Origin: Ignavibacteriales bacterium
GTDB taxonomy: Bacteria; Bacteroidota; Ignavibacteria; UBA10030
Assembly: GCA_016207415.1 (NCBI GenBank)
Contig: JACQPT010000145.1
Span: 1-39,663, forward strand
Direction: 5' to 3'
DNA length: 39,663 bases
Shown: piece by piece, positions 13,084 through 16,468 of the stretch
Numbering within the stretch: the stretch's first letter is position 1
Layout: every line of letters begins with the position of its first letter
Translations under genes and position numbers: made by a program
Notes under the pieces: generated by a model
Database searches by the model: none
Seen by the model: the letters and a program-made list of their open reading frames with translations, nothing else
What the model was told of the DNA's origin: nothing

Positions 13084-14784
13084 ATGGATATTCAGAAAAA
13101 AACCGTTCTCGTCTTAGGTGGCTGGGGGCTCGTCGGGTCGGCAATATGCCGAAAACTTGTTGAGCTGCGCCCGAAACGAATTATCGTAACCTCCCTGCTG
13201 GAATCCGAGGCAAGGGAAGCAGTCCAAACTTTACAACATGAGTTTCCACATGCCGGCCGAAGTTTCTTTCAGCCCTGGTGGGGGAATATTTTCGTCCGAC
13301 ATTCCCTCAAAGAAACGCCGCGGGAAGAAATTCTTCGTGCCGCTGCCACGCGCGCCATGCTGATCGACGACCTTCTGGATGAGTTTTCCACAGAGGTGTT
13401 GGAACGATCGGCAGTGTATCGACTGCTAAAAAAATACAGGCCTGAGATCGTTATCGATTGCATTAATTCCGCAACGGCAATCGCCTATCAGGATCTTTTC
13501 AACATTGCACGTGAGGTACGCAAGGAATTGAAAACCGGAAAGAGCGCATCGATTCAGGAAGCAACCGAGCGCCTCCTCGCCACGCAGTACACTCCGCAGC
13601 TCATCCGTCACGTCCAGCTCTTGTATCGCTCGATGCAGAAAGTCGGCACGAGAATCTACGTTAAAATCGGCACCAGCGGAACGGGAGGCATGGGGCTGAA
13701 TATTCCTTATACGCACAGCGAAGAACGTCCCTCATCGGTGCTTCTTGGAAAATCATCTGTGGCCGGCGCCCACACGATGCTGCTGTTTCTCATGGGCCGC
13801 ACCCCCGACGCTCCAATTACAAAAGAAATCAAGCCCACGGCCGCTATCGCATGGAAACGAATCGGATTCGGCGAGATCAAGAAACGCGGAAAACCTATCG
13901 AGCTCTACGATTGCCTGCCGGAAAACGCCGTCCCCCTGAAGAACACACTGAAACTCACGGATGATTCGCAGAAATGGACTTCGCTCAATCAGCCGCTTCG
14001 GTCCGTTTTTATCGATACGGGTGAAAACGGCACTTTTTCCCGGGCGGAATTCGAAGCCATCTCCACTCCGGGCCAGATGGAATATGTGACGCCGGAAGAA
14101 ATTGCCGAATCGGTGGTGTACGAGATCAAAGGCGGAAACACCGGCCACGATATCATTAACGCGCTCGACAATGCGACGTTGAACCCGACATATCGAGCTG
14201 GATTCATGTTCGAGCAGGCATTAAAACAGCTGCGAATTCTCGAGGAGAAACACAACACGAAAAGCATTGCGTTTGAGATTCTGGGCCCGCCCCGTCTCTC
14301 GAAACTCCTGTACGAAGCCCACCTTTTGCAGTTGACGTTTGAAAAAATGAAAGGAATCCCTCGCGCGACGCCGAAAGAAATGTCCGCAAAACTCGATGCA
14401 TGCGTTCGGTCAAACGCGGAACTGCGTTCCCGGATAATCTCCATCGGCATTCCCATTCTGTTATCCAATGGAAAGACCCTCCTGCGGGCAAAAGAGATCA
14501 AGATTCCTCCTTACCGCGGGGAAAACGAGTTAAGCATCACCGGCAAATCGCTCGACGCATGGGCACACGATGGATGGGTAGATTTGCGGACGAAAAACAT
14601 GGAACTCTGGAAACATCGCTTCACAAGAATCATGAACGACACGGAGCTTATCCCAAAAGGCGAGACCTCATCGCGCCACTTCCGCTCAAAAGGCTACTGG
14701 AACAACTTTGAGGATATTGATCCGGGCAAACTCGCTGGGTGGGTGTTCTCTGAAGAAGAGAAGGGAAAGAGGATGAAGGCGTAA
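13084..14784 (+). CDS. Large Rossmann-fold (SDR-like) protein of unknown function
   Basis: A 566-residue cytoplasmic protein with an N-terminal nucleotide-binding motif LVLGGWGLVGSAICRKL (about 9-26), the GGxGxxG of extended short-chain dehydrogenases. A strand and Asp (EIVIDCINSATAIAYQD, near 120-135) and YVKIGTSGTGGMGLNIPY (about 192-209) fit a Rossmann domain, but no plain YxxxK catalytic pair is evident. The second half (about 290-566) has no recognised domain and contains ISTPGQMEYVTPEEIAESVVYEIKGGN, where an SDR would regain its fold. It is about twice the length of a typical SDR. It follows the aldehyde dehydrogenase by 38 bases and is probably co-transcribed. A redox role on a shared pathway is a guess. 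Its stop codon touches the left arm of an inverted repeat. Confidence 0.75.
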   Translation: MDIQKKTVLVLGGWGLVGSAICRKLVELRPKRIIVTSLLESEAREAVQTLQHEFPHAGRSFFQPWWGNIFVRHSLKETPREEILRAAATRAMLIDDLLDEFSTEVLERSAVYRLLKKYRPEIVIDCINSATAIAYQDLFNIAREVRKELKTGKSASIQEATERLLATQYTPQLIRHVQLLYRSMQKVGTRIYVKIGTSGTGGMGLNIPYTHSEERPSSVLLGKSSVAGAHTMLLFLMGRTPDAPITKEIKPTAAIAWKRIGFGEIKKRGKPIELYDCLPENAVPLKNTLKLTDDSQKWTSLNQPLRSVFIDTGENGTFSRAEFEAISTPGQMEYVTPEEIAESVVYEIKGGNTGHDIINALDNATLNPTYRAGFMFEQALKQLRILEEKHNTKSIAFEILGPPRLSKLLYEAHLLQLTFEKMKGIPRATPKEMSAKLDACVRSNAELRSRIISIGIPILLSNGKTLLRAKEIKIPPYRGENELSITGKSLDAWAHDGWVDLRTKNMELWKHRFTRIMNDTELIPKGETSSRHFRSKGYWNNFEDIDPGKLAGWVFSEEEKGKRMKA

Positions 14785-14786
14785 CG

Positions 14787-14818
14787 ATTGCGGATTTTCG
14801 ATTGCGGATTGCGAATTT
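14787..14818 (+). repeat. Left arm of the inverted repeat
   Basis: The arm consists of repeated GATTGCGGATT words: ATTGCGGATT, a short TTCG link, then ATTGCGGATTGCGAAT. It begins two bases after the stop codon of the Rossmann gene. Read against the reverse complement of 15213-15243, it matches closely, with a few mismatches and small shifts around the central link. Confidence 0.85.
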
Positions 14819-14842
14819 GATACTCACCTGAAGGAGGATTGA

Positions 14843-15199
14843 ATGGATTCCGAAGAGTTGAAGTCCCGGTCACAGGACTTTGCTGTTGAGGTCATACGGT
14901 TTGTAATGAGTCTCCCCAATAGCAGAATCAATCACATTTTGGGTGATCAAGTTCTTCGATCGGTGACTTCGGTGGGAGCAAACTACCGGTCCGCATGCAG
15001 GGCCAGATCAAAGGCTGATTTCATTTCGAAAATAACAATCGTGGAAGAAGAATGCGATGAAACTCAATACTGGTTGGAACTTTTTCTGCGAGTCGGCGTG
15101 CCAAACAAACAACTTGTCGAGCGACTACTGAAGGAAGCTGCAGAACTGACAGCCATATTTACTGCTTCGGGAAGAACTGCCAAACGAAACAAATATTAG
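14843..15199 (+). CDS. Four-helix-bundle protein (23S rRNA intervening-sequence protein family, TIGR02436)
   Basis: A 118-residue, mainly helical, charged protein. It shows the family marks RFVMSLPNSR near 20-30, LRSVTSVGANYRSACRARSKADFISKI (about 39-65) and IVEEECDETQYWLELF (about 68-83), ending in a basic tail (RTAKRNKY). Homologues are encoded in intervening sequences of 23S rRNA genes and at many other chromosomal places, and the family is related to the Avd accessory protein of diversity-generating retroelements. Its biochemical role is not settled; nucleic-acid binding is suspected. The start at 14843 has AAGGAGGA at an ideal distance. The gene has its own inverted-repeat flanks and no functional tie to its neighbours, which suggests a later insertion. 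No reverse transcriptase or template repeat is seen in the window, so this is not a retroelement locus. Confidence 0.92.
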   Translation: MDSEELKSRSQDFAVEVIRFVMSLPNSRINHILGDQVLRSVTSVGANYRSACRARSKADFISKITIVEEECDETQYWLELFLRVGVPNKQLVERLLKEAAELTAIFTASGRTAKRNKY

Positions 15200-15212
15200 A
15201 CCCTAACTTCTA

Positions 15213-15243
15213 TTTCGCAATCCGCGATTCGCAATCCGCAATT
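15213..15243 (-). repeat. Right arm of the inverted repeat
   Basis: Read on the minus strand, the arm is AATTGCGGATT, then GCGAAT, then CGCGGATTGCGAAA. It pairs with 14787-14818 and overlaps the stop codon of the ABC permease gene (15242-15244). The word GATTGCGGATT and its relatives were not seen elsewhere in the window. Confidence 0.85.
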
Positions 15244-16468
15244 ATTCGTACCGCAATGCTTCAATTGGATCCAGGTTTGCCGCCTTCCACGCAGGATACA
15301 CGCCGAAGATTACTCCCACGATCGAACAAATCACGAACCCCAGAATTGCCCAGTCAAGCGGAAAGACGGGCGGTACTTCAAACATGAGCGCTACGAGGTT
15401 TCCCATCAGAATTCCAACCAGGATGCCGATGATCCCGCCTATCTGACAGAGCACAATCGCCTCTGTTAGGAACTGACCGAGAATGTTCTTTTTTCTGGCG
15501 CCGATCGCCTTTCGAATGCCGATTTCCTTTATTCGCTCCGAAACGGAAACGAGCATGATGTTCATAATTCCGACGCCGGCAGCAAGCAAAGACACAAAAC
15601 TGATGAACCCAACTCCAAGTTTGACATACTGAGTAAAATTGTTGAACTGCTCGATCATGGAATCGTTCGAGAACACGGAAAAATCATCCTCGGCGCCCGG
15701 AGCTACTTTTCTCACCGTTCTGAGGATCGTACGGGCCTCCTCCAGGCAATCTTCGTAGAGCTCAGGAGACTTGGCTTTGATCATGATATTGAGAGACCTG
15801 CGCGTTCCAAATTGGTCCTGGTACACGCTCAACGGGATGGCGACATAGTTCTCGTTCGGTCCACCGAGAGAAGCTCCTTTTGGCTCGAACGTCCCGATCA
15901 CGGAGTAGCGAACACCGTTGATTTTCACCTCCGAACCGACCGCATCTCCACGGGGAAAGACTTTCGAAACAATATCGCGGGCGAGAACAACGACTTTGCG
16001 CGCGTTTCTGAAATCATCGTTCGAGATGGATCTACCTTCCCGGATGACCCAGTTATTCGTAGGGATGCCGTTCGGCGTCTCTCCAAAAACCATAACATTT
16101 GGATTCGTTTTTTCGCCAGTCAGCGCCTGCACCACATTCCCCTGGTCAAAGGCTTCAATCCCGACATACATCGCCGTCGTGATCCGATCCTCTACTTTTG
16201 ACGCCTGTTCATAGGTGATGTCTTTTCGATTTCGGGCCTTTAACCATTGTTGCCGGCTTGCCATCACAGGGAATTTCTGAATCTGGAACGTGTGAGCGCC
16301 CAGGTTGCTCATCCCGCTTTCAATGCTGTTCTGCAGGACATCCACCGCCGTCATCACGCCGATAATCGAGAACACACCGACAACAATGCCAAGCAGAGTC
16401 AACACCGAACGCAGTTTGTTGGCCCGAATGGCGTTAAGAGATATTTTGACTATTTCGCCGAAATCCAT
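15242..16468 (-). CDS. MacB/FtsX-type ABC transporter permease (permease 1)
   Basis: A 408-residue permease without a fused ATPase. It has one N-terminal transmembrane helix (about 20-42, SVLTLLGIVVGVFSIIGV), a large periplasmic MacB-PCD domain (about 45-275), and three C-terminal helices. The FtsX signature [27 protein letters not shown] is present, as is the family's final DPIEALRYE. It is the last gene of the TolC-adaptor-ATPase-permease operon and starts 11 bases after permease 2, its close relative. The two may form a heterodimer with the separate ATPase. The substrate is unknown; macrolide, peptide or lipoprotein export are all known for the family. Confidence 0.93.
   Translation of the reverse strand: MDFGEIVKISLNAIRANKLRSVLTLLGIVVGVFSIIGVMTAVDVLQNSIESGMSNLGAHTFQIQKFPVMASRQQWLKARNRKDITYEQASKVEDRITTAMYVGIEAFDQGNVVQALTGEKTNPNVMVFGETPNGIPTNNWVIREGRSISNDDFRNARKVVVLARDIVSKVFPRGDAVGSEVKINGVRYSVIGTFEPKGASLGGPNENYVAIPLSVYQDQFGTRRSLNIMIKAKSPELYEDCLEEARTILRTVRKVAPGAEDDFSVFSNDSMIEQFNNFTQYVKLGVGFISFVSLLAAGVGIMNIMLVSVSERIKEIGIRKAIGARKKNILGQFLTEAIVLCQIGGIIGILVGILMGNLVALMFEVPPVFPLDWAILGFVICSIVGVIFGVYPAWKAANLDPIEALRYE

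Follow-up and report, generated by a model that had tools for sequence, protein, structure and literature searches.

A four-helix-bundle gene between inverted arms of seven-base words: a candidate REP-like mobile element without a recognised transposase

S23/IVP proteins and rRNA intervening sequences are already known, as are REP-RAYT pairs and bacterial heptad repeats, each in its own right. The S23/IVP proteins and the 23S rRNA intervening sequences resemble the cassette studied here in protein family and fold, in the form of a short, inverted-ended element with one ORF, and in patchy distribution. However, those intervening sequences lie in rRNA, whereas the cassette lies between protein genes, has heptad arms that are specific to each copy, and has gene-less relatives. 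REP-RAYT pairs are similar in that one gene is flanked by inverted repeats and further copies of the repeat, without the gene, are scattered through intergenic spacers, but they have a Y1 transposase and palindromes tagged with GTAG/CGTC. The cassette has neither; its arms consist of GATTGCG heptads, a word that differs from copy to copy, and its protein, unlike RAYT, is a four-helix bundle for which no catalytic activity is known. Avd, from diversity-generating retroelements, has the same fold, but the genome that hosts the cassette has no reverse transcriptase match.

The heptanucleotide repeats of Nostoc/Calothrix and Xanthomonas (PMC4692102, PMC4476775) and the TAACTGA repeats of Beggiatoaceae (PMC4679880) have the same unit length as the arms and, like them, are G-rich arrays of tandem 7-nt units in intergenic DNA, often as inverted pairs in spacers. 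No link between these repeats and a four-helix-bundle gene was found in the three papers, two of which were searched for mention of the fold, and no paper joining an S23/IVP protein to heptad arms was found in an open-access library.

The cassette lies in the window, by which we mean the whole 39,663-nucleotide stretch of DNA that was analysed, where it and its neighbours occupy the following positions.

13084..14784, + strand: left neighbour, 566 aa, with a Polysacc_synt_2-like N-terminus; reads in the same direction as the cassette gene, and the left arm follows directly on its TAA
14785..14820, + strand: left inverted arm, made of the imperfect heptads GATTGCG, GATTTTC, GATTGCG, GATTGCG and AATTTG; G-rich when read inward
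14831..14837, + strand: ribosome-binding site AAGGAGG, 5 nt ahead of the ATG
14843..15199, + strand: four-helix-bundle gene (TIGR02436 / PF05635, S23/IVP family), 118 aa, ATG start
15209..15242, - strand: right inverted arm, the heptad word of the left arm on the opposite strand; overlaps the stop codon of the right neighbour
15242..16468, - strand: right neighbour, an FtsX/MacB-type permease, convergent

The TAA of the left neighbour (14782-14784) is followed directly by the left arm at 14785, the right arm has a perfect core (16/16) at 15227-15242 that runs into the stop codon of the right neighbour (15242-15244), and the cassette fills the gap between two convergent genes. An earlier note on this DNA had described these borders, the TIGR02436-like gene of 118 residues, its own ribosome site and the lack of a transposase or reverse transcriptase, all of which hold. 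The flanking inverted arms that it reported are also present, but they are not repeats of an 11-base word (GATTGCGGATT); they are tandem heptads with a period of 7 and the main word GATTGCG, both arms carrying one word. Their pairing score is 34, and swapped flanks of other loci reach 30 in 0.7% of trials. In the computed fold of the sense RNA, a check that the note had proposed, the arms are paired (-147.4 kcal/mol, z = -4.3). The four-helix-bundle gene is the sole gene inside the cassette, with no Y1 (IS200-like) transposase gene in the unit, and RVT_1 gave 0 reverse transcriptase matches at E<=1e-10 in the host genome (G000, 89% complete). No rRNA family match occurs in 14500-15500, where the cassette sits between two protein genes, and the synteny of the left and right neighbours is kept among relatives in the taxonomic family of the window.

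The window protein scores 89.4 bits to TIGR02436 (cut-off 24) and 67.1 bits to PF05635 (cut-off 33.8). Its AlphaFold2 model has four helices (pLDDT 97), and the closest PDB matches of this model are the S23-family proteins 2RLD (TM 0.86) and 2GSC (TM 0.83), followed by Avd of diversity-generating retroelements (4DWL/8UB7, TM 0.74-0.79). Both 2RLD and 2GSC have five chains, and a Xanthomonas protein has been described as a pentameric toroid (PMC4990558), from which we infer that the window protein would form a ring-like pentamer. Genes of the family are under purifying selection (dN/dS 0.02-0.16). The proteins carry a net charge of only about +2, and nucleic-acid binding is therefore not evident from charge. 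Of 198 genomes sampled from the window's phylum, 148 have the family gene, which is also present in archaea, Firmicutes, Proteobacteria, cyanobacteria and others.

Inverted arms are not a peculiarity of the window. Family genes were gathered from 32 genomes, giving 91 full-length loci for a test of inverted repeats and 94 gene flanks for autocorrelation. When flanking inverted repeats were counted at a score of at least 24, they were present in 58% of the 91 loci, compared with 1.5% when flanks were swapped between loci. Autocorrelation of the 94 flanks peaks at lag 7 (0.38/0.39), lag 14 (0.37/0.36) and lag 21 (0.34/0.33), with small shoulders one base past each peak, while distant and other intergenic stretches give 0.24-0.29 (about 0.25-0.28 for the controls at lag 7). 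The same pattern recurs in other samples: 82 genes taken from named bacterial genomes of many phyla and from named archaeal genomes show a lag 7 identity of 0.41/0.42 and inverted arms in 80% (4% swapped), 33 genes from IMG/VR contigs have such arms in 75% (versus 5%), and 29 genes from the wider phylum have them in 48% (versus 2%). An independent set from Spirochaetota, found by PF05635, gives 0.38/0.41 at lag 7. Among 234 bacterial and archaeal genes, period-7 arrays are present in the upstream flank of 75% and the downstream flank of 71%, against a shuffle null of 5%, and the other periods from 4 to 12 rise above the null in 6-18% of upstream flanks. Period-7 arms are thus a signature of the whole four-helix family, across phyla. 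Searched phage records gave no match.

Each copy has its own word, which is common to both its arms: word similarity is 0.647 between the two arms of one copy and 0.438 between copies. The idea of one word for all copies was rejected; what the words share is just that they are poor in C and usually contain AG. In the inward direction, 143 of 164 upstream arms are rich in G and poor in C. The commonest arm length is four to five heptads, a mode partly set by the detection threshold. Even within the host genome, which has seven TIGR02436 matches or fragments above the cut-off, some of them decayed, the copies differ in arm word. One lies between two tRNA genes (L062, G000:C38:6102-6428) and has the arm word ATTGCAGATTGTAG, another (L061, G000:C3) has GTCGTTGGTTCGTC arms, and a third (L008, G000:C44) is decayed and contains stops, with old and dead copies coexisting in this genome. 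The nearest relatives of the window protein, which are at other loci in other genera, have words of the GATTGNN type (GATTGTC, GATTGCC, AGATTGT). Arms therefore tend to descend with the protein, although the statistics are modest (p = 0.014), and co-variation of word and protein is weak when orthologous sites are taken into account (same genome, rho 0.26, p 0.013).

Heptad arrays also exist apart from the gene. In 525 kb of loci there are 43 period-7 arrays away from any family gene, compared with 0-14 for other periods, and single arrays without a partner arm occur. The doubled window word has about 250 matches in 30 of the 32 family genomes, part of them coding matches, versus 4 for a reversed control. 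The earlier note had named several copies of the arm sequence, with or without the gene, as support for mobility, and such copies are what we find; the arms are not unique, and the cassette is absent from the window site in most relatives. Two gene-less heptad hairpins in G012 (L352, L353) adjoin tRNA-like sequence. In G018, which is 55% complete, there are 60 matches of GATTGCGGATTGCG, far above other relatives, and only one family gene was found; one of its array sites looks orthologous to a site in G002 (L355/L369). Xanthomonas cucurbitae has a single family gene with GGGAATC arms (L236 / L374), located in an operon between accB and accC (names assigned from sequence), and its genome contains 486 matches of the doubled GGGAATC word versus 0 in the control. 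This arm word is exactly the published Xanthomonas repeat word. GGGAATC repeats have been described as quadruplex-forming, with 70 present as inverted pairs in X. campestris, in a paper that makes no mention of a four-helix gene (PMC4692102).

The placement of the cassettes relative to neighbouring genes is biased in orientation. With neighbours called as long ORFs, which makes the counts approximate, 170 sites comprise 110 tandem pairs in the direction of the gene, 17 tandem pairs against it, 27 convergent and 16 divergent sites, and the bias in tandem pairs is thus 110:17. In the 27 convergent sites the gene is co-directional with the left gene. Overall, the family gene follows the stop codon of a co-directional gene in 81% of cases, and convergent gaps account for 16%. 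The preference for convergent gaps that had been proposed from the window was accordingly rejected. Where the left gene is co-directional, the median distance from its stop to the left arm is 0 nt; where the right gene is co-directional, a median of 6 nt separates the end of the right arm from it. Exact filling of the gap is therefore a general property.

Evidence for movement comes from cassettes that are shared between unrelated sites and from sites that are empty in relatives. One cassette is found in an ANME-1 and a Methanomicrobiales genome (L241/L250) with 92% nucleotide identity in the gene, arms included, and unrelated flanks, and two cassettes of the host genome (L063/L064) are 71% identical over 528 nt including the arms, again in unrelated flanks. 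Nostocales plasmids have both filled and empty sites. On a Calothrix plasmid, a cassette with GGGTGTA arms lies between an integrase stop and the next ATG (L302), where four relatives (L317-L320) have a 3-nt gap. On a Nostoc plasmid, a GGGAACA cassette follows the TraM stop (L304/L305), and the site is empty in three relatives (L312, L313, L316). None of these seven empty sites has heptads. At the same TraM site, L314 shares the left junction but lacks the gene, and L315 carries another heptad hairpin, likewise gene-less. Judging from these comparisons, whole cassettes, gene and arms together, have moved between genomes without a recognisable transposase, in keeping with the earlier suggestion of a REP-like, transposase-free mobile unit. 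Movement is rare, since the gene often stays in place among close relatives. No target-site duplication is visible by eye at plasmid sites A and C (two sites only, with flanks 90-95% identical). MITEs resemble the cassette in being short, with terminal inverted repeats and gene-less copies, but no parent transposase was found for the cassette, and its ends are tandem words.

At the window site itself, the readable gaps of other genera are 42-241 bp without the family gene or, in six cases, hold a response regulator, in agreement with the empty sites predicted for this locus. The small response-regulator gene is found in this convergent gap in L012, L013, L015, L016, L019 and L021. Only G012, a relative in the same genus, also has a cassette there, and it is a different one: the two proteins are 50% identical, whereas the neighbouring genes are 86-96% identical, and the window protein is equally close (51-53%) to copies that lie elsewhere in the genomes of other genera. 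This suggests that one cassette has been replaced by another. Alternatively, the cassette may simply change faster, given the high dS of the neighbours (0.9-3.4).

Another plasmid, pANA02 of Anabaena sp. 90, carries a cassette between cas6 and cas4 of a type I-D CRISPR locus (L306, record 41280-47603). Its gene is preceded by about 350 bp of GGTGACA/GGGAACA heptads; two relatives are without the cassette there, and one has a different spacer. The cassette-free cas6-cas4 spacer of Dolichospermum UHCC 0315A (L310) contains a different inverted-repeat insert, GTAGGTTGGGTTG...CAACCTAC, which is perhaps another mobile repeat.

Other explanations of the arms must be weighed against a mobile element. 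The heptad arrays and hairpins might be an independent, host-made repeat of the REP or MITE kind, with the gene inserting into ready hairpins and the arms belonging to the target. Such a view would account for the abundance of gene-less arrays, which in places outnumber gene copies, and for the gene-less hairpins L314 and L315 at a site where others have the gene; it also finds a parallel in rRNA intervening sequences, which replace tetraloops (PMC4990558). However, the arms of L241/L250 travel with the gene between unrelated sites, the empty plasmid sites hold no heptads, and near relatives of the window protein have similar words at other loci, which makes this origin of the arms unlikely. 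The suspicion that the arms are chance inverted repeats or a terminator can be given practically no weight: although convergent gaps often hold terminator hairpins, and several relatives have one at the window site, it is already refuted by the matched controls for the family-wide period-7 signal.

Two further possibilities place the function of the arms in RNA. The protein could be a post-transcriptional regulator rather than part of a selfish element, its ring binding mRNA heptads in the manner of TRAP while cassettes spread by ordinary gene transfer. The strong sense orientation after a stop codon, the purifying selection and the stable sense-strand fold would all suit a regulator, and a translational role has been suggested for the TAACTGA heptads of Beggiatoaceae (PMC4679880). 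Yet mismatches in the arms comprise 204 G-U versus 232 A-C (p = 0.20), and with no G-U excess they show no mark of selection for pairing in the sense RNA; conservation of the arms as a sense-RNA helix was rejected on these counts. Moreover, precise empty sites exist, and no shared function of the insertion sites was apparent in an unsystematic look, so we regard regulation as quite unlikely. Still less probable, to the point of being very improbable, is the idea that a 23S rRNA intervening sequence has settled outside rRNA, where it would act only as an RNA stem-loop cut by RNase III. The protein family is the same and the inverted ends pair in the computed RNA fold, but the missing wobble signal, the gene-less arrays and the partnerless single arrays speak against it. 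A location in rRNA was itself rejected: 20 Spirochaetota loci gave no match to any Rfam family, those of rRNA among them, and the loci tested contain no conserved rRNA motif. As for a partner acting in trans, five near-complete genomes (G017, G051, G059, G072, G091) have 8-12 copies and neither reverse transcriptase nor Y1 transposase at E<=1e-10, and their match lists led us to reject either enzyme as an obligatory partner.

On balance, we lean toward a compact, REP-like mobile element whose pentameric protein recognises heptads and which is moved by host machinery. This reading draws together the build of the cassette, its occurrence in many phyla, copies at unrelated sites and in other organisms, empty sites, arrays that have the same word but no gene, and purifying selection; what we infer beyond these observations is that the ring recognises heptads and that host enzymes bring about the movement. 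The element would consist of the four-helix-bundle gene between inverted arms of about 4-6 tandem seven-base words. A ring-like pentamer would contact many heptads at once, each subunit taking about one word; arms usually have four to five heptads, which would suit a pentamer, although the detection threshold favors that range too. The bound protein might mark or protect the ends of the element, and host replication or repair enzymes, rather than a transposase encoded by the element, would copy the element, and derivatives of it that lack the gene, into new spacers. Insertions would persist mostly right after a stop codon and in the direction of transcription, where the gene could be expressed by read-through and little host DNA would be harmed. 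The logic would be like that of a REP-RAYT pair, with a non-catalytic binding protein replacing the transposase.

Defining features of each of the known mobile classes appear to be lacking in the cassette, and we therefore rate the element class as new and its protein as a member of a known family. A more far-reaching version, which is possible but which we put forward with some doubt, is that S23/IVP genes are the autonomous partners of prokaryote-wide heptad-arm elements, and these elements a main source of the heptad repeats of cyanobacteria and xanthomonads, the ring protein reading the word of its own copy and driving spread without a transposase. If true, this would join rRNA intervening sequences, the heptad repeats of cyanobacteria and Xanthomonas, and free-standing S23 genes, and would point to movement without a recognised recombinase. 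A very common family of 'hypothetical' proteins would also gain a partner in cis, the heptad arms, and with it a handle on the function of S23/IVP proteins.
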